Positions 40,956-48,388 of a stretch of DNA of 64,000 bases are shown one piece after another (the stretch's first letter is position 1; each line of letters opens with the position of its first letter). The translations under genes were made by a program, and so were the position numbers. The DNA is from Pseudomonas sp. NC02 (GTDB lineage: Bacteria > Pseudomonadota > Gammaproteobacteria > Pseudomonadales > Pseudomonadaceae). The notes under the pieces are model-generated. The model ran no database searches, was not told the origin of the DNA, and worked only from the letters and a program-made list of their open reading frames with translations. Where the stretch lies: the NCBI RefSeq assembly GCF_002874965.1, contig NZ_CP025624.1, positions 2,418,001 to 2,482,000 on the forward strand, in the 5' to 3' direction.

Positions 40956-43781
40956 CTACCGGTGCTGAAACCTTGGCAACGAAGCAATCCGCATCTTCGG
41001 CTCCTGCAACCTGGCCAGGTCACTGGCAATCTGCGCCCGCCAGAAATGCGCCCCGGCCAACTGCGCATCCACCCACGCCTGGCGCAGCAACACCTTGGCC
41101 TTGTCCACCGACCCGTACTGGGCCTGGCGCAGAATCAGCTGCGCCTTGATCCGCAACATCTGCGGCACGAACCAGCGCTCATGCCGGCCCAGCGCCAATT
41201 GCAGGGTGTCTTCCAATACCTCCAGCGCCAGTTTCTCCAGGCCCAGCCGCGCCAGCCCCAGGGCGTATTCACAACGCAGCAAGCTATAAAGCTGGCTGTC
41301 GCCTTGCCCATGCAGGTGATGCAAGGCCTCACCCAGCAACGGCACGCCTTCTTCGGGCGACCCCTGGCGGATCAGCAGGATGCTCTCGAAGCACAGCCGA
41401 AACTGACGCCAGATGTGCAGGTCCTGCTGGGTCGTGCTGTCTTGCAGCAAGCCCAGGTAGTACCGCACCTTGGGCAGGTTGGACGCCAACAGCGCCAGGG
41501 GAATTGCCCCCAGGCACAGGGTGTACCAGAGTGTCGCGGGGTGATCGAGGGTGATGGCTTCATCGACGCAACTGCCGATCAGGCGCAGCGCCGGGTCGAC
41601 ATCGCCTTCCAGCAACTGCACCTGTGCCTTGAGGCAGCGGGCGGCGATGCGCTGGTCAAAATGCACGTCGATAATATGCGAGCGCGGCGCTGACGGTGAC
41701 CCCAGCGCCTCGTCGATATTCTGTCGGGCGCCGGCCAGGTCGCCCATGTGAAACAACGCCAGCGCGCGCATGCGTTTACCCAGCAGTTGCTGGTTGCCGC
41801 TGTTGTTCAGGCTGATGTAGCGCTCGGCCAATTCCAGCGCTTCGGCGTACTGGTTGCAGCCGCAGCGGTCACTCCACAGGCCCCACAGCGCCCGCAGCTT
41901 GTGCTCGGCATCGCCCAGGTCGCGGGCGTCTTCACGCACCTGGCGCCAGGCTTCGCGCATTGGCCCGCCGGTGCCATAGGTGAGCATCAGCACGCTGGCC
42001 AGGGCGGTTTGCAACAGCATGCGCTGGCGCAGCGGCAGCGGGGTGGTGGCGGCGCTGGCCAGGCCTTTGTCGACCCAGGTGCGGCACTCGCTGACCAGCG
42101 ACAGGCGCAGCCACAAAGGCACACCGCCCAGGGTCAGTTCGATGCCGGTGGGCAGGTCGCCCGAGGCTGAAAAGGCCCACTCCAGCGCGGTGCGGATGGT
42201 GTTGATTTCCGGGCCGTAGAGGCCGATCCAGGTCTCGGGAGAAAGCCCGTCGAGGGTCTGCCCGGCTTCCTGCAATACGCCCAGCGCATACAGTGCATGA
42301 CGCTGGCGGGTGGCGTCGGCTTCGCCGTGTTCGTTGAGCTTCTCCAGGGCGTAGGCGCGGGTGGTTTCCAGCAGGCGGTAGCGCTTGAGCAACTGCGATT
42401 CACCGGCGATCAGCAGCGACTTGTCCATCAGGCTTTCCAGCAAGGGCAGGGCATTGCGGGCATCGAGGGTGCTGCTGGCGGTCATGGCCTTGACCGCGTC
42501 CAGGGTAAAAGAACCGGTGAACACCGCCAGTTGGCGCAACATGGCCTGTTCGTCGCCGGTGAGCATCGAGTAGGTCCAGTCCAGGGTCGCGCTCAGTGAA
42601 CGGTGGCGGGCGAGGGCGGTGCGCCGGCCGGTCATTTGCAGGCGGAAGCTGCCGTCGAGCAACCCCACCAGGTCCTGGATGCCAAAGGTGCGCACCCGCG
42701 CTGCGGCGATTTCGATGGCCAGGGCGTTGCTATCGAGCTTGCGACAGATGGCGCTGGCGGCGGCGACGTCGGTGTCCTTGAACACGAAGGCGGGGTCGAG
42801 GGCCTTGACCCGTTCGATGAACAGGGCGATGCCCGACCAGGTCATGGCTTGCTCGGCACTCAAGTTCACGTCTTCGTCCGGCACCAGCAACGGGGCGAGG
42901 TCGTGCACCCGTTCGCCCTCGGCCCGCAGCGGCTCGCGGCTGGTGGTCAGCACGCAGCACTGGGGCGCGCAACGCAGCAGCACTTCGACGACGTCGGCGG
43001 TGGCTTGCAGCACGTGCTCGCAGTTGTCGAGCACCAGCAGCAACGGGCTGTTGGCGAGCATCGCGGCCACGCTTTGCAAGGGCTCGTCACTCACGCTCTG
43101 GATGCCCAGGGCGTTGGCGAGCATGCCGGCCACCCATTGGCCGCTGGTGGCGGGGGCCAGGTCGACGAAGCACATGCCCTGGTGAAAGCGGCCCTGCAGC
43201 AGTTGCGCCACGGCCAGGGCCACGGTGGTCTTGCCGATGCCGCCGGGGCCGGTGATGGTCACGAAGCGCTGGCTCAGTACCTGGTCGGCCAGGCTCAGGA
43301 TCAGCTGTTCGCGACCAATCACTGTGCTGGGTGGCGGTTGCAGGTTGGGCACGTCCACCGTCGGGGTGGGTACCAGCGCCTGGGCGATGGCGCCTTCACT
43401 CACTGCCTGCATTGTCACCGGCGCGACAAACCGATAACCCCGGCCTGGCACGGTGACGATGTAGCTGAAGTTGCCGTCATCCCCCAGCGCCCGGCGCAGC
43501 GCAACGATCTGCGCGCGCAGGTTACATTCCTCCACCACCACCTTGGGCCAGGCGAAAGAGATCAGCTCGGACTTTTCCAGCAACTCGCCAGCCCGGCTGG
43601 CGAGGGCGATCAGCAGGTACAAGGCGCGGCTGCCGAGGGTCACCGGCTCGCCGTTGCGCAGCAATACATGCTGGCGCGCCAACAAGAGAAAGGGGCCAAA
43701 ACCGATTGCATTCTCGGTGTGGTCCGGGGCCTGGGGGACGAGGTCCGTGAAGGACGCTGCGGGGTATTTGCTCGAACTCAT
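40956..43781 (-). CDS. STAND-type transcriptional regulator (winged helix + NB-ARC-like ATPase)
   Basis: A 941-residue cytoplasmic protein. The N-terminus is an OmpR/PhoB-type winged helix (about 30-120; GSRALYLLIALASRAGELLEKSEL, VPGRGYRFVAPV). A STAND ATPase comes next, with Walker A GPGGIGKTT (about 178-187), Walker B LLLVLDNCEH and a TSREPLRAEGE sensor segment. A long helical TPR-like region (~480-941) forms the signal-binding part. Such proteins integrate a ligand with ATP-driven oligomerisation. The start at 43781 has AAGGA eight bases upstream. It is divergent from the bufferin operon and is the best candidate to regulate it, although bufferins elsewhere are under ECF sigma control. Confidence 0.85.
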   Translation of the reverse strand: MSSSKYPAASFTDLVPQAPDHTENAIGFGPFLLLARQHVLLRNGEPVTLGSRALYLLIALASRAGELLEKSELISFAWPKVVVEECNLRAQIVALRRALGDDGNFSYIVTVPGRGYRFVAPVTMQAVSEGAIAQALVPTPTVDVPNLQPPPSTVIGREQLILSLADQVLSQRFVTITGPGGIGKTTVALAVAQLLQGRFHQGMCFVDLAPATSGQWVAGMLANALGIQSVSDEPLQSVAAMLANSPLLLVLDNCEHVLQATADVVEVLLRCAPQCCVLTTSREPLRAEGERVHDLAPLLVPDEDVNLSAEQAMTWSGIALFIERVKALDPAFVFKDTDVAAASAICRKLDSNALAIEIAAARVRTFGIQDLVGLLDGSFRLQMTGRRTALARHRSLSATLDWTYSMLTGDEQAMLRQLAVFTGSFTLDAVKAMTASSTLDARNALPLLESLMDKSLLIAGESQLLKRYRLLETTRAYALEKLNEHGEADATRQRHALYALGVLQEAGQTLDGLSPETWIGLYGPEINTIRTALEWAFSASGDLPTGIELTLGGVPLWLRLSLVSECRTWVDKGLASAATTPLPLRQRMLLQTALASVLMLTYGTGGPMREAWRQVREDARDLGDAEHKLRALWGLWSDRCGCNQYAEALELAERYISLNNSGNQQLLGKRMRALALFHMGDLAGARQNIDEALGSPSAPRSHIIDVHFDQRIAARCLKAQVQLLEGDVDPALRLIGSCVDEAITLDHPATLWYTLCLGAIPLALLASNLPKVRYYLGLLQDSTTQQDLHIWRQFRLCFESILLIRQGSPEEGVPLLGEALHHLHGQGDSQLYSLLRCEYALGLARLGLEKLALEVLEDTLQLALGRHERWFVPQMLRIKAQLILRQAQYGSVDKAKVLLRQAWVDAQLAGAHFWRAQIASDLARLQEPKMRIASLPRFQHR

Positions 43782-44357
43782 CAATTTGTCCTTTTTTGTA
43801 GTCGGGCTTGTTATTGGCGATCAGGCCATTCGCCCTTTTGGGTGCTTACGTGCGGCAGCAGGCTTGGAGAGTTGAAGTCGATCAAAAAGGTGAGAGTTGT
43901 CGCCCTCCTTTGGGGCATGGACGTTGTTATAGGGCGCGGGGCCGTTGGGTTTCAGGCGATGAGACTGTTTCAATTTAGAAACATTTTATTACTAGAAAAC
44001 CTGATGTAGCAGAATGTATGCCAGTTGGCATGTAACAAAGATGACAACAACCGTATGAAATTTATGGGGATTTTTGAGGTCGTCGAAAGCGGGGGAAGGT
44101 GGGTGTTCGGAAAGGCGAATATTTCTAATTGTGTCGTTCGGGATGCCGAATAAAACGGCGGTGGTTTGGCGTGGTTTTTTTGGCTGTGTATCAGACTGTG
44201 TATCAGCACCCACCTGATACACCGGCATGAATAGAAGGAGGAAACGCGACACAGACGGGATACACGCCTGGCTTTAAATCTGTCTACCAGATGGCGCAGG
44301 CGGTCACCCACCGCACAAGCGCCCTGGCCACATTCAGTCAAGCCAGGAGATTCAACA
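43782..44357. other. AT-rich intergenic region upstream of the bufferin operon
   Basis: These 576 bases are clearly richer in A and T than the rest of the window, especially about 43970-44130. I see no credible gene on either strand. The region holds the palindromic site at 44185-44222 and must contain the promoters of the STAND regulator and of bufA1. Confidence 0.7.
44185..44222. promoter_or_regulatory. Operator-like repeats upstream of bufA1
   Basis: TGTGTATCAG occurs twice in direct orientation (44185-44194 and 44197-44206). The second copy forms a perfect inverted repeat with CTGATACAC (44214-44222) across a 7-base spacer. The array lies 136-173 bases before the bufA1 start. Confidence 0.6.
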
Positions 44358-44630
44358 ATGAAGCGCCATTACGCAGCCCTTGCCGCCACCCTCGCACTGT
44401 CCCTCGGTGCCTTCGCCGCCACTGCCCATGCCGAGGATGCCAAGCCTCAGGAAAAATGCTTCGGCGTGTCCCTCGCCGGTGCCAACGATTGCGCCGCCGG
44501 TGCCGGGACTTCCTGCGCCGGCACCGCCAAGGCGGATTACCAGGGCAACGCCTGGGTGCTGGTGGACAAAGGCACCTGCACCCAGATCAAAACCCCCAAA
44601 GGCTTCGGCAGCCTGACGGAACAACCATGA
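44358..44630 (+). CDS. bufA1: BufA1-family bufferin precursor (DUF2282)
   Basis: A 90-residue secreted peptide. A Sec signal peptide (about 1-25, cleavage after AHA) precedes a core with four cysteines: [14 protein letters not shown] (C34, C45), SCAG (C53) and KGTC (C74). The spacing matches DUF2282 proteins now known as BufA1 bufferins. In these, an MNIO enzyme converts core cysteines to sulphur heterocycles and the product binds copper in the periplasm. It is the first gene of the operon. The stop overlaps the DoxX start as ATGA. Confidence 0.88.
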
Positions 44631-45055
44631 TTGCCCTGGCCCCTGCGGTGCTCAAGCGTGTGCTGCCTGAGGCGCTGCTGTTGCTGGTGGCCCGCCTCGG
44701 GATCGCTTCGGTGTTTTTCCTCTCGGGCCGCACCAAGGTGACCGGTTTCCTGCAGCTCAAGCCGTCGACCTACACCTTGTTTCGCTCGGAATACGCCTTG
44801 CCGCTGGTGCCGCCGGACTGGGCAGCGCACCTGGCGACCTACGCCGAGCATCTGTTCCCGCTGTTGCTGGTGCTGGGCCTGCTGACCCGCCCGGCGGCTG
44901 CCGCGCTGTTGGGCATGACCCTGGTGATCGAGGTGTTCGTGTACCCCGACGCCTGGCCGACCCACCTGACCTGGGCGGGCTTGTTGCTGCCGCTGCTGGC
45001 GTATGGCGGCGGGGCCTGGTCACTGGACCGCGTGCTGTCCGGCCAACGCCGTTAA
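44627..45055 (+). CDS. bufD: DoxX family inner-membrane protein (BufD-like)
   Basis: A 142-residue protein with about four membrane helices and the DoxX features [20 protein letters not shown] and [17 protein letters not shown]. DoxX proteins are regular members of bufferin (gig/buf) operons, probably linking the matured peptide or its thiol chemistry to the respiratory membrane; the exact role is not known. It is translationally coupled to bufA1. Confidence 0.85.
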
Positions 45056-45100
45056 CCCTTTCACAACAATGATCAGGCCCCAAGGCCTGTGGAGAGTCGC

Positions 45101-45868
45101 ATGCGTATTCTTTCTTCCCTGGCGATCGCCATGGCACTCGCTACACCGTTGGTGGCCTCGGCCGCCGATGCAGCCAAGCCCCAGCCGGGCACCGGTAAAA
45201 GCGTGGTGATCGTGCCCGGTTCCTTTGTCGACGGCTCCGGCTGGCGAGTGGTGCACGACATCCTGATTCACAAGGGCTACAAGGTCACCGTGGTGCATCA
45301 GGGCCATGAAAGCCTCGCCGCCGACGTGGCCGAGGCCCGCGAAGTGCTGGAGCAGCAGGTCGGCCCGGTGGTGCTGGTGGGTCACAGCTCCGGCGGCGGG
45401 GTGATCTCGATTGCCGGTGACCGCGACAAGGTCAAGTCGATGGTCTATGTCTCGGCCCTGCAACCGGAAGTCGGCGAGAACATGAGCCAGTTGCTGTCGT
45501 CGATGCCGGCGCCGAGCAATGACGTGATGCAGACCCGCGACGGCCATCTGTTCTTTGATCGCACCAAGTTCAATGCCGACTTTGCTGCCGACCTGACCAC
45601 CAACCGCACCGACTTCATGGCCGCCTCCCAGGTGCCGGCCACCACCGCGCTGTTTGGCGGCACCGTGTGGGCCGCGGCCTGGCACAAGAAGCCGACCTAC
45701 GCCGTGGTGTCCACCGAAGACCGTGCCCTGAGCCCCGATCTGCAGCGCTGGATGTACAAGCGCGCCGGCTCGAAAGTCACTGAAATCAAGGCCAGCCACT
45801 CGGTGTACATCTCCCAGCCCGAGGCTGTGGCGAAGGTCATCGAAGACGCGGCATCCGTCATCAAATAA
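45101..45868 (+). CDS. Secreted α/β-hydrolase
   Basis: A 255-residue precursor. A signal peptide (about 1-25, ending SAADAA) is followed by an α/β-hydrolase fold with an oxyanion segment VPGSFVDGSGW, the nucleophile elbow VGHSSGGG (Ser), and the catalytic His in ASHSVYISQP near the C-terminus; the acid is in the VSTEDRAL segment. It resembles the EstC/salicylate-esterase-like periplasmic hydrolases. The ATG at 45101 has GGAG six bases upstream. Its presence between the two bufferin precursor genes is unusual and its substrate is unknown. Confidence 0.82.
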   Translation: MRILSSLAIAMALATPLVASAADAAKPQPGTGKSVVIVPGSFVDGSGWRVVHDILIHKGYKVTVVHQGHESLAADVAEAREVLEQQVGPVVLVGHSSGGGVISIAGDRDKVKSMVYVSALQPEVGENMSQLLSSMPAPSNDVMQTRDGHLFFDRTKFNADFAADLTTNRTDFMAASQVPATTALFGGTVWAAAWHKKPTYAVVSTEDRALSPDLQRWMYKRAGSKVTEIKASHSVYISQPEAVAKVIEDAASVIK

Positions 45869-45893
45869 ACCCCACCCCCGAGGAGTAATACCC

Positions 45894-46166
45894 ATGAGCA
45901 CATCCATCAAATCCCGCTTGAGCCTTGCCACTGCTGCCGCCCTGATCGCCATGGCGTCCGCTTCCTTCGCGGCCGCCGCCAGCGCCGCCGACCAGCCGGA
46001 ACAGCCGGGTCGCTGCTACGGCGTGAACAACTGCAAGGGCGAAAGCCTGTGCGCCACGGCCAAGAACGATTGCAAGGGCCTCAACAGCTGCAAGGGCCAG
46101 GGCGTTGTCGTCAAGACCCCGTCCGAGTGCCTGAAGCTGGGCGGCACCACTACCGAACCGAAGTAA
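45894..46166 (+). CDS. bufA2: BufA2-family bufferin precursor
   Basis: A 90-residue secreted peptide. A signal peptide (about 1-32) precedes a core with six cysteines at 41, 47, 53, 60, 66 and 79: CYGVNNCKG, LC, NDCKG, NSCKGQG and SEC. This CxxC-free pattern with CKG repeats is that of BufA2-type bufferins, a different family from BufA1. It is followed by a stable hairpin (46173-46195) and then by the maturase gene, a usual way to make more precursor than enzyme. It should be modified by the MNIO enzyme downstream and bind copper or a similar metal in the periplasm. Confidence 0.88.
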   Translation: MSTSIKSRLSLATAAALIAMASASFAAAASAADQPEQPGRCYGVNNCKGESLCATAKNDCKGLNSCKGQGVVVKTPSECLKLGGTTTEPK

Positions 46167-46172
46167 CACCCC

Positions 46173-46195
46173 GGCGGGCCCAGGTTGGGCCCGCC
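46173..46195 (+). terminator. Hairpin between bufferin precursor and maturase genes
   Basis: GGCGGGCCCA and TGGGCCCGCC are exact complements around a 3-base loop. Only a weak T-run follows (CTATTTATG), so it should act as a partial terminator or mRNA stabiliser rather than a full stop. Confidence 0.7.
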
Positions 46196-46219
46196 GCCTA
46201 TTTATGCAACGGAGACCAC

Positions 46220-47074
46220 ATGATGCCGACACCCAACCCGCGTTTTCCAGGCTATGGCCTGGGGCTGCGCAAGGAACACTACAGCGAGTTCCTGGAGAAC
46301 CCGGTGGCGGTGGATTTCGTTGAAGTGATCTCCGAGAATTTCATGGTCGCGGGCGGCCAGCCCCGGCACATCCTGCGCCAGATTCGCGAGCGGTATCCGG
46401 TGGCGCTGCACGGGGTGTCGATGTCGATCGGCACGGCCGAGGGCCTCGATCGCGATTACCTGAAACGCCTCAAGTCGCTGGTGGACGAGATCGAACCGCT
46501 GTTTGTGTCCGACCACTTGAGCTGGTCCCGCAGCGGGGGTTTCAACTCCCATGATCTGTTGCCGGTGCCTTACACCCATGAGGCATTGGACCGGGTCTGC
46601 GCCAATATCGACCTGGCTCAAGAAGTGTTGGGCCGCACGATGCTGTTTGAAAACCCGTCCAGCTACCTGGCCTTTGATGGCGCGTCCATGAGCGAGTGGG
46701 AATTCATCGCCGCCATGTCCCGGCGCACCGGCTGCGAGCTGTTGCTGGACGTCAATAATGTGTTTGTCAGCGCCAGCAACCATGGCTTTGACGCTCTCGC
46801 GTTTCTCGACGGGATTCCGGCCGAGCGGGTCCGGCAAATTCACCTGGCCGGCCATAGCCAGGGCCGCGATTTGCTGATCGACAGCCACGACAGCCCGGTG
46901 TGTGATGGCGTCTGGGACTTGTATGCCAAGGCCGTTGCGTTGCTCGGCCCGGTCGCCACGATGATCGAGCGCGATGACGAGATCCCGCCCCTGGCAGAGC
47001 TGCTGGAGGAGCTGTCGCTCGCCCGCATGCTCGGTGCCTCCGAGGCCTACAAGCGTGCGCAGGTGCGCTCATGA
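46220..47074 (+). CDS. bufB: MNIO family bufferin maturase (DUF692, MbnB/TglH-like)
   Basis: A 284-residue multinuclear non-haem iron-dependent oxidase with a TIM-barrel fold. The metal ligands of MbnB/TglH are all present: His64 (ALHGVS), His99 (SDHLSW), Glu144 and Asn145 (FENPSSY), Asp177 (LLLDVNN), His188, His208 and His212 (IHLAGH), His223 (DSHDSP) and Glu in MIERDDE. These enzymes use two or three irons and O2 to turn peptide cysteines into sulphur-containing heterocycles. GGAG is six bases before ATG 46220. Its stop overlaps the DUF2063 partner gene. Confidence 0.92.
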   Translation: MMPTPNPRFPGYGLGLRKEHYSEFLENPVAVDFVEVISENFMVAGGQPRHILRQIRERYPVALHGVSMSIGTAEGLDRDYLKRLKSLVDEIEPLFVSDHLSWSRSGGFNSHDLLPVPYTHEALDRVCANIDLAQEVLGRTMLFENPSSYLAFDGASMSEWEFIAAMSRRTGCELLLDVNNVFVSASNHGFDALAFLDGIPAERVRQIHLAGHSQGRDLLIDSHDSPVCDGVWDLYAKAVALLGPVATMIERDDEIPPLAELLEELSLARMLGASEAYKRAQVRS

Positions 47075-47847
47075 ATCTCGCGCAATGGCAGCAGGCTTTT
47101 CATACCTGGCTGGTGAGTGCCTCGGAGCAGTCGGCCGAGATGTTGGGTAACAAGGCCGCGGGACTGGCGGTGTATCAGAACAACTACCGCGCGCAATTGG
47201 TGGGTTGCCTGGAACAGGCGTTTCCCAACCTGCGGCGCTGGGTCGGGGACGAGGCGTTCCTGGCCGCGTGCGTCAGCCATATCGACCGGCATCCGCCCCA
47301 TGCCTGGACCCTGGACGTCTATCCCGAGGGTTTTCACCTGACCCTGGGCGAACTGTTCCCCAACAATCCCGACGTGCATGAACTGGCCTGGATCGAGTCG
47401 TCGCTCAATGAAGCGTTTGTCGCCGCCGATGCCAGCCCGTTGCCCATGGACGTGCTGGCGTCGGTGGATTGGGACACGGCACGCCTGCAACTCACGCCGT
47501 CGCTGCGGTGCCATGGGCTGACCACCAACGCCGAGGCGATCTGGTCGGCATTGTGGCAGCAAACCCCGGCGCCCGAGGCGCTGATGCTGGCCGAGGCCGG
47601 TGGGCTGCTGGTGTGGCGCCGCCAGTTCACCTCGCGCTTGCGCCAGGTCGATGCGCTGGAGTTCCAGGCCTTGGTGCACCTGCAAGGCGACGGCAGTTTT
47701 GCCGGGTTGTGCGAGTTTCTGGTAGCGCGCCTGGGGGAAGAGCAGGGCGTCGCGAAAGCCGGTGAGCTGTTGGCCGGCTGGATCGGCAGCGAGTTGATTG
47801 TGGGGGTCGTTGAAGACCTTTCTGTGTCGCATTTTTCGGAGCTATAA
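47071..47847 (+). CDS. bufC: DUF2063 protein, MNIO partner (BufC)
   Basis: A 258-residue protein of the DUF2063/putative DNA-binding domain family (N-terminal MNLAQWQQAFHTWL, then YQNNYRAQLVGCLEQAFPNLRRWVGDEAFL). In spite of the family name, its relatives (MbnC, BufC) bind the precursor leader and deliver it to the MNIO enzyme through an RRE-like fold. It is coupled to bufB by an ATGA overlap and followed after 4 bases by a truncated hydrolase gene. Confidence 0.88.
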   Translation: MNLAQWQQAFHTWLVSASEQSAEMLGNKAAGLAVYQNNYRAQLVGCLEQAFPNLRRWVGDEAFLAACVSHIDRHPPHAWTLDVYPEGFHLTLGELFPNNPDVHELAWIESSLNEAFVAADASPLPMDVLASVDWDTARLQLTPSLRCHGLTTNAEAIWSALWQQTPAPEALMLAEAGGLLVWRRQFTSRLRQVDALEFQALVHLQGDGSFAGLCEFLVARLGEEQGVAKAGELLAGWIGSELIVGVVEDLSVSHFSEL

Positions 47848-47851
47848 ACCT

Positions 47852-48388
47852 ATGTCTTTTTTCAATCGCCGGCGCTTTCTGATTTCCAGCGCCATTGCTT
47901 CAGTGGCGTTGTCACTGCCGGTCATGGCGACGCCCGCCCGTTGGACGATCCGCCAGGTCAGCACCGACCTGCTGGATATCGGCTACTACGAGGCCGGCCC
48001 GGAAGAGGGCAGGCCGATCATTTTGCTGCATGGCGCGGACGGCGACCTGGAGCGCTTCGCCGAGGTCGCACCCTACCTGGCCGCCCGGGGCTTTCGGGTA
48101 GTTGCCCCGTACCTGCGTGGCCATGGCACTACCACGCCGCTGGACAAGGCGGCACCCGCCAGCACTCAGGAAGTGGTGCTCGGCCAGGACGTGCTGGACT
48201 TGATGAACGCCTTGCACATCCCCGAGGCGGTGCTCGGCGGGTTCGATCTCGGCGGCCGCGCTGCCACCGCCGCGGCGACCTTGCGGCCAAGCCGTTGCGT
48301 GGCATTGGTCACCGTCAACAGCGCGCCGCAGCCCGCCCTGGCCGAGGTGCTGGTGCAGATGGCGCAGATGGGCAAATGGCGCACCTGA
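47852..48388 (+). pseudogene. Truncated secreted α/β-hydrolase
   Basis: A 178-residue frame starting with a Tat-like signal (NRRRFLISSAIASVAL). The first part of an α/β-hydrolase follows (PIILLHGADGDLERF oxyanion region, RVVAPYLRGHG, and GGFDLGGRAA). The last motif has Asp at the nucleophile position, as in haloalkane dehalogenases and epoxide hydrolases. The frame stops just after the elbow, so the cap and the catalytic His are missing. Normal family length is about 280-320 residues and no further part is found in other frames before the next gene. It is therefore probably a remnant, though still open and placed 4 bases after bufC. Confidence 0.65.

Follow-up and report, generated by a model that had tools for sequence, protein, structure and literature searches.

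The window analysed here, a 64,000-nucleotide stretch of the Pseudomonas sp. NC02 genome (contig NZ_CP025624.1, positions 2,418,001 to 2,482,000), carries on its forward strand a mixed bufferin locus, in which secreted Cys-rich peptides of two types are encoded beside one MNIO-DUF2063 pair. A first-pass annotation had described two Cys-rich precursors, one MNIO, one DUF2063 protein and one DoxX protein at 44358–47847, and profile searches confirmed every one of these genes at its position. The DUF2282 (Buf1-type) precursor comes first (44358–44630; 90 aa; PF10048, 84.3 bits, cut-off 22.4), followed by a DoxX membrane protein (44627–45055; PF07681, 67.9 bits), HydA, a secreted alpha/beta hydrolase (45101–45868; PF12697, 78.4 bits), the BufA2 (Buf2-type) precursor (45894–46166; 90 aa; NF050166, 86.9 bits, cut-off 60), an MNIO maturase of BufB type and Buf2 lineage (46220–47074; PF05114, 367.4 bits; NF050167, MNIO_BufB, 383.7 bits, cut-off 310) and its DUF2063 partner (BufC, PME type 1; 47071–47847; PF09836, 81 bits). 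The operon extends one gene past the earlier description, to 48388, with HydB, a shortened second alpha/beta hydrolase (47852–48388) whose PF00561 match covers 117 of the 245 model positions. The DUF2282 gene and DoxX overlap by 4 bases, as do MNIO and DUF2063, and the other intergenic gaps in the operon measure 45, 25, 53 and 4 bases, a spacing that would be consistent with a single transcript.

Both precursors begin with a signal peptide, as judged by eye, and the DUF2282 peptide has four cysteines after it while BufA2 has six. The four-Cys core of the NC02 DUF2282 peptide is common to its mixed-cluster relatives (75/80 by script, the remaining five being mis-anchored and showing four cysteines by eye), and BufA2 has six cysteines in all 80. 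The two precursors had been called unrelated, which is probably wrong. When canonical DUF2282 cores were compared with BufA2 cores by hhalign over the core length, two of four comparisons gave 93% and 78% and the remaining two were weak at 15% and 5%, with at most 0.66% in 20 column-shuffled runs of one comparison. Matches to the BufA2 model point the same way, although they are weak (22.3 bits for the NC02 DUF2282 peptide against NF050166, cut-off 60), and a remark in PMC12452194 terms the structural models of the two families related. We therefore reject the reading as unrelated families and regard the precursors as probably homologous but differently spaced.

The MNIO retains a set of polar residues that vary little or not at all across 221 MNIOs, for example E35, H64, H99, E144, D177, N179, H208, D221, H223, E250 and D252, which presumably include the MbnB iron ligands. 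Directly after the catalytic Asp252 stands Asp253, the Buf2-type residue, and in the NC02 BufA2 peptide Lys follows Cys2, Cys4 and Cys5 and Ala follows Cys3, so that this Buf2 pair combines Cys-Lys motifs with the accompanying Asp. An Asp at this place in the MNIO has been tied to Lys after Cys in the substrate (PMC13097082). It occurs in 34/35 BufA2-only loci against 61/80 mixed clusters, the remaining 19 of which have Ala (9), Gly (8) or Glu (2) compared with a single exception among the BufA2-only loci, and the residue is thus relaxed in mixed clusters. As the FonB F250D variant stayed active according to the same paper, the position is no strict switch. On the substrate side, Ala follows BufA2 Cys3 in 68/80 mixed clusters and likewise follows Cys2 in most of their DUF2282 peptides, whereas ten sphingomonads have Lys at both places. 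The correlation between Asp and Lys is confounded by phylogeny, and the Lys/Lys combination comes mostly from a single clade. Ala after BufA2 Cys3 was also seen in a BufA2-only locus (L235).

The two halves of the cluster differ in ancestry. In the trees, MNIO and DUF2063 of mixed clusters nest within the Buf2 clade, and the NC02 mixed operon has no Buf1-type MNIO but a BufB-type MNIO and a DUF2063 partner adjoining BufA2, as in Buf2. Mixed-cluster DoxX groups with the DoxX of DUF2282 operons, and DoxX was found in only 3/35 BufA2-only loci. With maturases of Buf2 descent and DoxX of Buf1 descent, a merger of two operons is indicated. The NC02 DoxX scored below the HvfX cut-off (45.8 vs 80) and the DUF2063 protein below that of HvfC (27.9 vs 142). 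Exact monophyly of the mixed-cluster MNIOs received weak support (0.505), and BufA2-only loci are interspersed among them inside a supported clade (1.0).

Of the 80 closest MNIO loci kept, 76 have both precursor types near a single MNIO-DUF2063 pair. Two of the four exceptions (L040 and L053) lie at contig ends, one (L039) carries a deletion that affects HydA and BufA2, and one (L090) has BufA2 only. In L084 the DUF2282 and BufA2 frames stand about 3 kb apart, a point against the shared-maturase reading. Sphingomonads, Burkholderiales and Pseudomonas all fall within the range over which the cluster is conserved, but it is a minority type: a phylum sample had none in 37 MNIO loci, and a genus sample had two in 42; three loci with adjacent separate A1 and A2 operons (L204, L211 and L213) were not counted as mixed, precursors being assigned to the nearest MNIO. 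The arrangement had been called unusual, which holds in so far as it is a minority type and fails in that it is widely conserved. A rare oddity is rejected by its presence in nearly all of the best relatives, and since the pairing recurs in many bacteria we view it as a stable version of a copper-defence system that is already known.

Taking gene content, conservation, enzyme ancestry and the genomes in which no other maturase was found together, we think it likely that this is a merged bufferin cluster, in which a Buf2 maturation module has been combined with a Buf1 precursor and DoxX, and in which one MNIO-DUF2063 pair matures both peptides. The order of events that we infer is that a Buf2-type module of BufA2, MNIO and DUF2063 fused with a Buf1-type operon of which the precursor and DoxX remain, its own maturase presumably having been lost. 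The single complex would act ahead of Sec export, binding the two precursors in the cytoplasm and converting core cysteines of each into thiooxazoles, presumably the two central cysteines in DUF2282 and probably the Cys-Lys/Cys-Ala cysteines in BufA2; both periplasmic peptides could then chelate excess copper. More tentatively, and with the balance of our judgement against it, the cluster may be a dedicated two-peptide copper buffer, in which an MNIO-DUF2063 pair of Buf2 descent broadened its specificity and selection keeps the peptides as a working pair and not as spare copies, for example for different copper states or a hand-over in which DoxX and the hydrolase might take part.

The NC02 genome alone decides nothing about the maturase, as canonical buf1 and buf2 operons lie elsewhere in it, the latter at 6.84 Mb, and give it two other MNIO-DUF2063 pairs. 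The first-pass annotation had left open whether one enzyme modifies two dissimilar cores or the DUF2282 peptide is matured elsewhere, and had named a second MNIO/DUF2063 pair dedicated to DUF2282 as evidence against the former. Such a pair does exist, in a complete DUF2282-MNIO-DUF2063-DoxX operon at 1.44 Mb, but it comes with a DUF2282 peptide of its own and so does not show who matures the mixed-operon peptide. That the buf1 maturase acts on the mixed-operon DUF2282, leaving BufA2 alone to the local pair, would agree with the similar DUF2282 cores of the two operons and with the Buf2-type Asp253 of the local MNIO, and in the 26 of 48 mixed-cluster genomes with another DUF2282-linked MNIO cross-maturation is possible. 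We nevertheless consider it improbable, because the other 22 genomes have no such MNIO. Twelve of these have no other MNIO at all, their one MNIO, their one DUF2282 and, over cut-off, their one BufA2 and one DUF2063 all lying in the mixed cluster; the further ten have other MNIOs, none DUF2282-linked, and each of the nine checked has a single DUF2282 gene. Genomes reached through their loci carry no completeness value. One relative (locus L096, genome G135), estimated to be 100% complete, keeps the MNIO lineage and DUF2063 with DUF2282 and without BufA2 (support for the MNIO placement is 0.995 in one tree and 0.32 at the matching node of another). Its one sister-lineage MNIO and one DUF2063 are divergent from DUF2282-DoxX; in three relatives in its family BufA2 lies in between. 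Comparison with relatives largely decides the question, the single-maturase genomes and the relative without BufA2 lending support to one enzyme acting on two cores.

An alternative raised in the Discussion of PMC12452194, that extra precursors go unmodified, would make the mixed-cluster DUF2282 an ordinary Cys-protein that is retained beside DoxX for some other function, and DUF2282 and DoxX do often move as a unit; in sphingomonads they are divergent from BufA2-MNIO-DUF2063. The peptides, however, have the NDC(A/K)AG..T(S/T)CA core and the four cysteines of many canonical maturase-linked DUF2282 peptides, the central two cysteines are the modification sites in Buf1 (PMC12452194), and L096 retains MNIO and DUF2063 although BufA2 is missing, so that we hold this explanation to be quite unlikely. 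We give very little credence to a chance neighbourhood of two unrelated transcription units with no functional link. Many genera retain the linkage through changes of gene order (of the 18 order strings, some are artefacts of the way open frames were sorted), and in a more distant cluster (L242) MNIO, DUF2063 and DUF2282 are joined by 4-base overlaps behind BufA2.

A shared maturase receives weak support from the leaders as well. Scored against a mixed-BufA2 leader model, mixed-cluster DUF2282 leaders exceeded canonical ones with an AUC of 0.89 (lineage-thinned), compared with 0.75 for a BufA2-only near-sister model and 0.53 for other BufA2. Canonical Luteibacter DUF2282 leaders have a similar motif, and under a canonical DUF2282 leader model mixed BufA2 leaders also come out higher than canonical ones (medians 19.8 vs 17.2), so part of the similarity may stem from inheritance or from a generic likeness among signal peptides.

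The same seven-gene order was listed earlier as the 'Pep4' BGC of Pseudomonas (DUF2282 peptide, DoxX, hydrolase, second short peptide, DUF692, DUF2063, hydrolase; PMC8719888), a match in gene order to a published gene list. There the second peptide is given as having 'no conserved domain' and the DUF692/DUF2063 proteins are suggested to act in metal or oxidative stress; in the text of that paper available to us we found neither the shared-maturase idea nor a spread beyond its own strains. The mixed cluster resembles the Buf1 BGCs of PMC12452194 in its DUF2282 precursor, DUF2063 partner and DoxX and differs in the lineage of MNIO and DUF2063. With the Buf2 BGCs and the captophorin 'Cys-Lys' class (PMC12452194; PMC13097082) it shares the six-Cys BufA2, the Buf2-type MNIO and DUF2063, but it adds the DUF2282 peptide and DoxX, and it departs from that class in the Ala after BufA2 Cys3 and in the frequent replacement of the Cys-Lys-linked Asp. 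PMC12452194 reports bufferin BGCs with tandem precursors as well as genomes in which a single MNIO/PME pair accompanies several precursors. One bufferin complex is already suspected there to modify several related precursors, and further studies are called for; the parts of its text available to us describe no Buf1+Buf2 cluster, no clade of such clusters and no case lacking one precursor. Mixed clusters bear on substrate choice by bufferin-type MNIO complexes among secreted Cys-peptides. Species with a single maturase (some Cupriavidus, Sphingomonas or Novosphingobium) offer a clean genetic test, and a Buf2-derived enzyme with two substrates would suit studies that map how DUF2063 recognises leaders and how the residue following the catalytic Asp bears on the tolerance for different cores.

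The accessory elements are less uniform. HydA has a GHSSGG elbow (S96), D207 and H233, and its sequence relatives in the PDB include SABP2, hydroxynitrile lyases and pyrethroid hydrolase. It is present in 67/80 mixed clusters, and since the nucleophile Ser is absent from 20 of 66 alignable copies (9 Asp, 11 Gly) we reject a conserved serine hydrolase. At the HydB position, 24 relatives' loci have open frames of 322–549 aa. In the gap between BufA2 and MNIO lies a GC-rich hairpin with a perfect 11-bp stem (46172–46196; −25.0 kcal/mol); stems of at least 7 bp occur in 33/74 real gaps against 2/74 shuffled ones (one letter shuffle each), and the hairpin is possibly an attenuator or an mRNA stabiliser. 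Upstream of the DUF2282 gene, a promoter module TGTATC ... TGTATC ... GATACA ... GATACA (44187–44264) has two GATACA 43 bases apart in 29/29 Pseudomonas loci listed, with TGTATC upstream in 28, and is absent or partial in other genera. A divergent winged-helix/AAA regulator is absent beside many relatives and was rejected as a universal part, and Pseudomonas loci that lack it still have the module.

The operon of the first-pass annotation, in which two dissimilar bufferin precursors lie beside one MNIO-DUF2063 pair (a BufB-type maturase and its BufC partner protein), is present as it was described, and its products match the family models. On the forward strand it comprises the genes for a DUF2282 (Buf1-type) peptide (44358-44630; PF10048), DoxX (44627-45055; PF07681), the secreted alpha/beta hydrolase HydA (45101-45868; PF12697), a BufA2 (Buf2-type) peptide (45894-46166; NF050166), the MNIO (46220-47074; PF05114 and NF050167) and DUF2063 (47071-47847; PF09836), each above the curated cut-offs, and then a shortened hydrolase, HydB (47852-48388). 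Hvf-type NCBIfam models stayed below cut-off for DoxX and DUF2063 in the profile search. A winged-helix/AAA regulator (40956-43784) is divergent from the operon, and upstream of the DUF2282 gene lie TGTATC (44187, 44199) and GATACA (44216, 44259) promoter elements. The two GATACA elements are 43 bases apart in 29/29 of the Pseudomonas loci listed, and the pair is kept also at loci of this genus without an adjacent regulator gene. Between BufA2 and MNIO there is a GC-rich hairpin (46172-46196); stems of at least 7 bp occur in 33/74 such gaps vs 2/74 after one letter shuffle of each, which would fit a surplus of precursor over enzyme.

The listed gene order of 'Pep4' (PMC8719888) is exactly that of this operon, and tandem precursors, as well as genomes in which a single MNIO/partner pair faces several precursors, are noted in PMC12452194, which does not settle whether all such precursors are modified. 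The gene order is already published, and the idea of one pair for several precursors has been raised. No description of a Buf1 and Buf2 cluster with a shared maturase was found in the titles and abstract openings of a partial library of the bufferin/MNIO literature. The mixed operon is a variant of the bufferin kind.

As to how often one MNIO accompanies both DUF2282 and BufA2 genes, a search of GTDB genomes gave 471 relatives of the MNIO, the nearest from Pseudomonas, and in 76 of the best 80 among these 471 both precursor types lie no farther than about 4.5 kb from the MNIO, measured on open frames (in one, L084, the two precursor frames are about 3 kb apart). The exceptions are two contig ends (L040, L053), a BufA2-only locus (L090) and L039, where BufA2 and the last part of HydA are deleted. 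The loci come from Pseudomonas, Caballeronia/Burkholderia/Paraburkholderia, Cupriavidus, Massilia/Duganella and their kin, Dyella/Luteibacter, sphingomonads and a Caulobacter MAG, a range that spans the groups formerly called Alpha-, Beta- and Gammaproteobacteria. Most beta- and gammaproteobacterial clusters have all genes co-directional, HydA included; in eleven sphingomonads BufA2-MNIO-DUF2063 is divergent from DoxX-DUF2282 and HydA is absent. Two further samples were selected independently of the window's MNIO. The phylum draw (110 genomes) held 37 MNIO loci outside the own one, all fetched: 23 with DUF2282, 10 of a further class (EGKCG), 2 with BufA2, 2 with none and 0 mixed. Among the 59 genomes of the genus draw there were 89 such places, of which the 43 from the first 25 matching genomes were examined; one (in G102) was assigned to the phylum set, and the remaining 42 loci were 19 DUF2282, 8 BufA2, 7 none, 6 EGKCG and 2 mixed. 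Close matches to the window's MNIO (E <= 1e-110, identity at least 80%) occur in 18/249 genus genomes, the own genome counted. Three Pseudomonas genomes (G530, G643, G676) carry a TGA within the region aligned to this MNIO.

In the MNIO tree 85/86 mixed-cluster enzymes fall in one clade (support 1.0), which also includes 12 BufA2-only, 2 DUF2282-only and 1 unclassified enzyme and is nested in a larger Buf2 clade (support 0.91). DUF2063 ancestry parallels that of the MNIO, mixed-cluster DoxX groups with the DoxX of DUF2282 operons, and DoxX was recovered in only 3/35 BufA2-only loci. The simplest reading is that a Buf1 precursor-DoxX unit and a Buf2 maturation unit merged. Three Luteibacter loci (L204, L211, L213), in which canonical DUF2282 and BufA2 operons adjoin, each with its own MNIO, possibly picture the state before the merger. 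A more distant mixed operon (L242:4920-7191; BufA2-MNIO-DUF2063-DUF2282, the last three genes coupled by 4-base overlaps) has an MNIO outside the mixed clade and suggests a separate second origin. BufA2 has probably also been lost. One genome (G135; 3 contigs, estimated 100% complete) has one MNIO, one DUF2063 and two DUF2282 genes, with no BufA2 match in a genome-wide search. Its MNIO joins the mixed clade with support 0.995, and 0.32 at the matching node of a tree with more taxa; it is divergent from DUF2282-DoxX and, by eye, an apparent sigma-factor gene adjoins. Since BufA2 sits between MNIO and DUF2282-DoxX in three other members of its family (G312, G404, G480), it was likely lost here. 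L039 is a second loss, in a genome that also carries a complete mixed cluster (L055).

As to which pair matures the DUF2282 peptide, the host genome, a single contig of 6.89 Mb with the window at 2418001-2482000, has 3 MNIOs, 3 DUF2063, 2 DUF2282 and 2 BufA2 genes in genome-wide searches. The second pair for a DUF2282 peptide, which the first-pass annotation had named as evidence against sharing, does exist, in a canonical buf1 operon at 1.44 Mb (DUF2282-MNIO-DUF2063-DoxX), and a canonical buf2 operon lies at 6.84 Mb (BufA2-MNIO-DUF2063), the mixed operon accounting for the rest of these genes; the presence of that second pair does not identify the maturase of the window's DUF2282 peptide. Fifty of the best 80 loci were submitted to a whole-genome MNIO count, giving 48 genomes. 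Maturation from elsewhere would be open to the 26/48 that carry another DUF2282-linked MNIO. In 12/48 the mixed-cluster MNIO is the sole one, and the one DUF2282, one over-cut-off BufA2 and one over-cut-off DUF2063 all lie inside the cluster; extra weaker BufA2-model matches coincide with the DUF2282 gene, and a further, sub-threshold DUF2063 match occurs in one of these genomes (G028). For the remaining genomes, every additional MNIO locus save one 31-bit fragment in G043 was fetched and classified; in 10/48 none is DUF2282-linked, and nine of these ten have one DUF2282 gene each (G022 left out). Where no other DUF2282-linked MNIO exists, the mixed-cluster DUF2282 peptide is matured locally or not at all, unless a distant BufA2-type or unassigned MNIO acts. 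We consider it likely that one MNIO-DUF2063 complex matures both peptides, and the single-maturase species, together with the case without BufA2, make shared maturation directly testable.

The leaders (N-terminal precursor parts) bear on the same question. The likeness between DUF2282 and BufA2 leaders is greater in mixed clusters (mean z 3.1) than in canonical (1.6) or crossed pairs (2.0 and 1.8), with an AUC of 0.89 by HMM. This likeness fits a shared reader, since preliminary results in PMC12452194 report the signal peptide as part of BufB-BufC recognition. The canonical DUF2282 leader model also scores mixed BufA2 leaders higher (19.8 vs 17.2), so that inheritance or generic likeness may partly underlie the resemblance. 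Within BufA2, Ala follows Cys3 in 68/80 mixed clusters vs 2/35 of the BufA2-only set, one of the two (L053) being probably a cut mixed cluster; L235, a BufA2-only locus additional to the 35, has this Ala too. In the MNIO, the catalytic Asp is followed by Asp in 34/35 BufA2-only and by Phe in 16/16 EGKCG enzymes; at this position the 80 mixed-cluster enzymes have Asp (61), Ala (9), Gly (8) or Glu (2), and DUF2282-only enzymes (76 loci) Asn (20), Asp (8), Gly (7), Ala (3) or Glu (1), no ERD motif being found in 37/76. According to PMC13097082, Phe or Asp at this position is tied to residues around the modified Cys, but a Phe-to-Asp variant of the studied MNIO retained activity.

HydA, whose sequence kin are hydrolases of the SABP2/hydroxynitrile-lyase type, was found in 67/80 clusters. 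Its chemistry is not uniform, because the nucleophile Ser, kept in 46/66 alignable copies, is replaced in 20/66 (Asp 9, Gly 11), none of these from Pseudomonas. HydB frames of about 150 aa, shorter than that of the window, occur in many P. fluorescens-group relatives; in many other genera, as in some Pseudomonas outside this group, the frames exceed 320 aa. One locus (L239) has a tandem of three BufA2 genes ahead of one MNIO. EGKCG-type MNIO loci, too, can have winged-helix regulators nearby, together with HydA-like hydrolases that score 242 and 130 bits (L114:7289-8188, L111:9158-10786).
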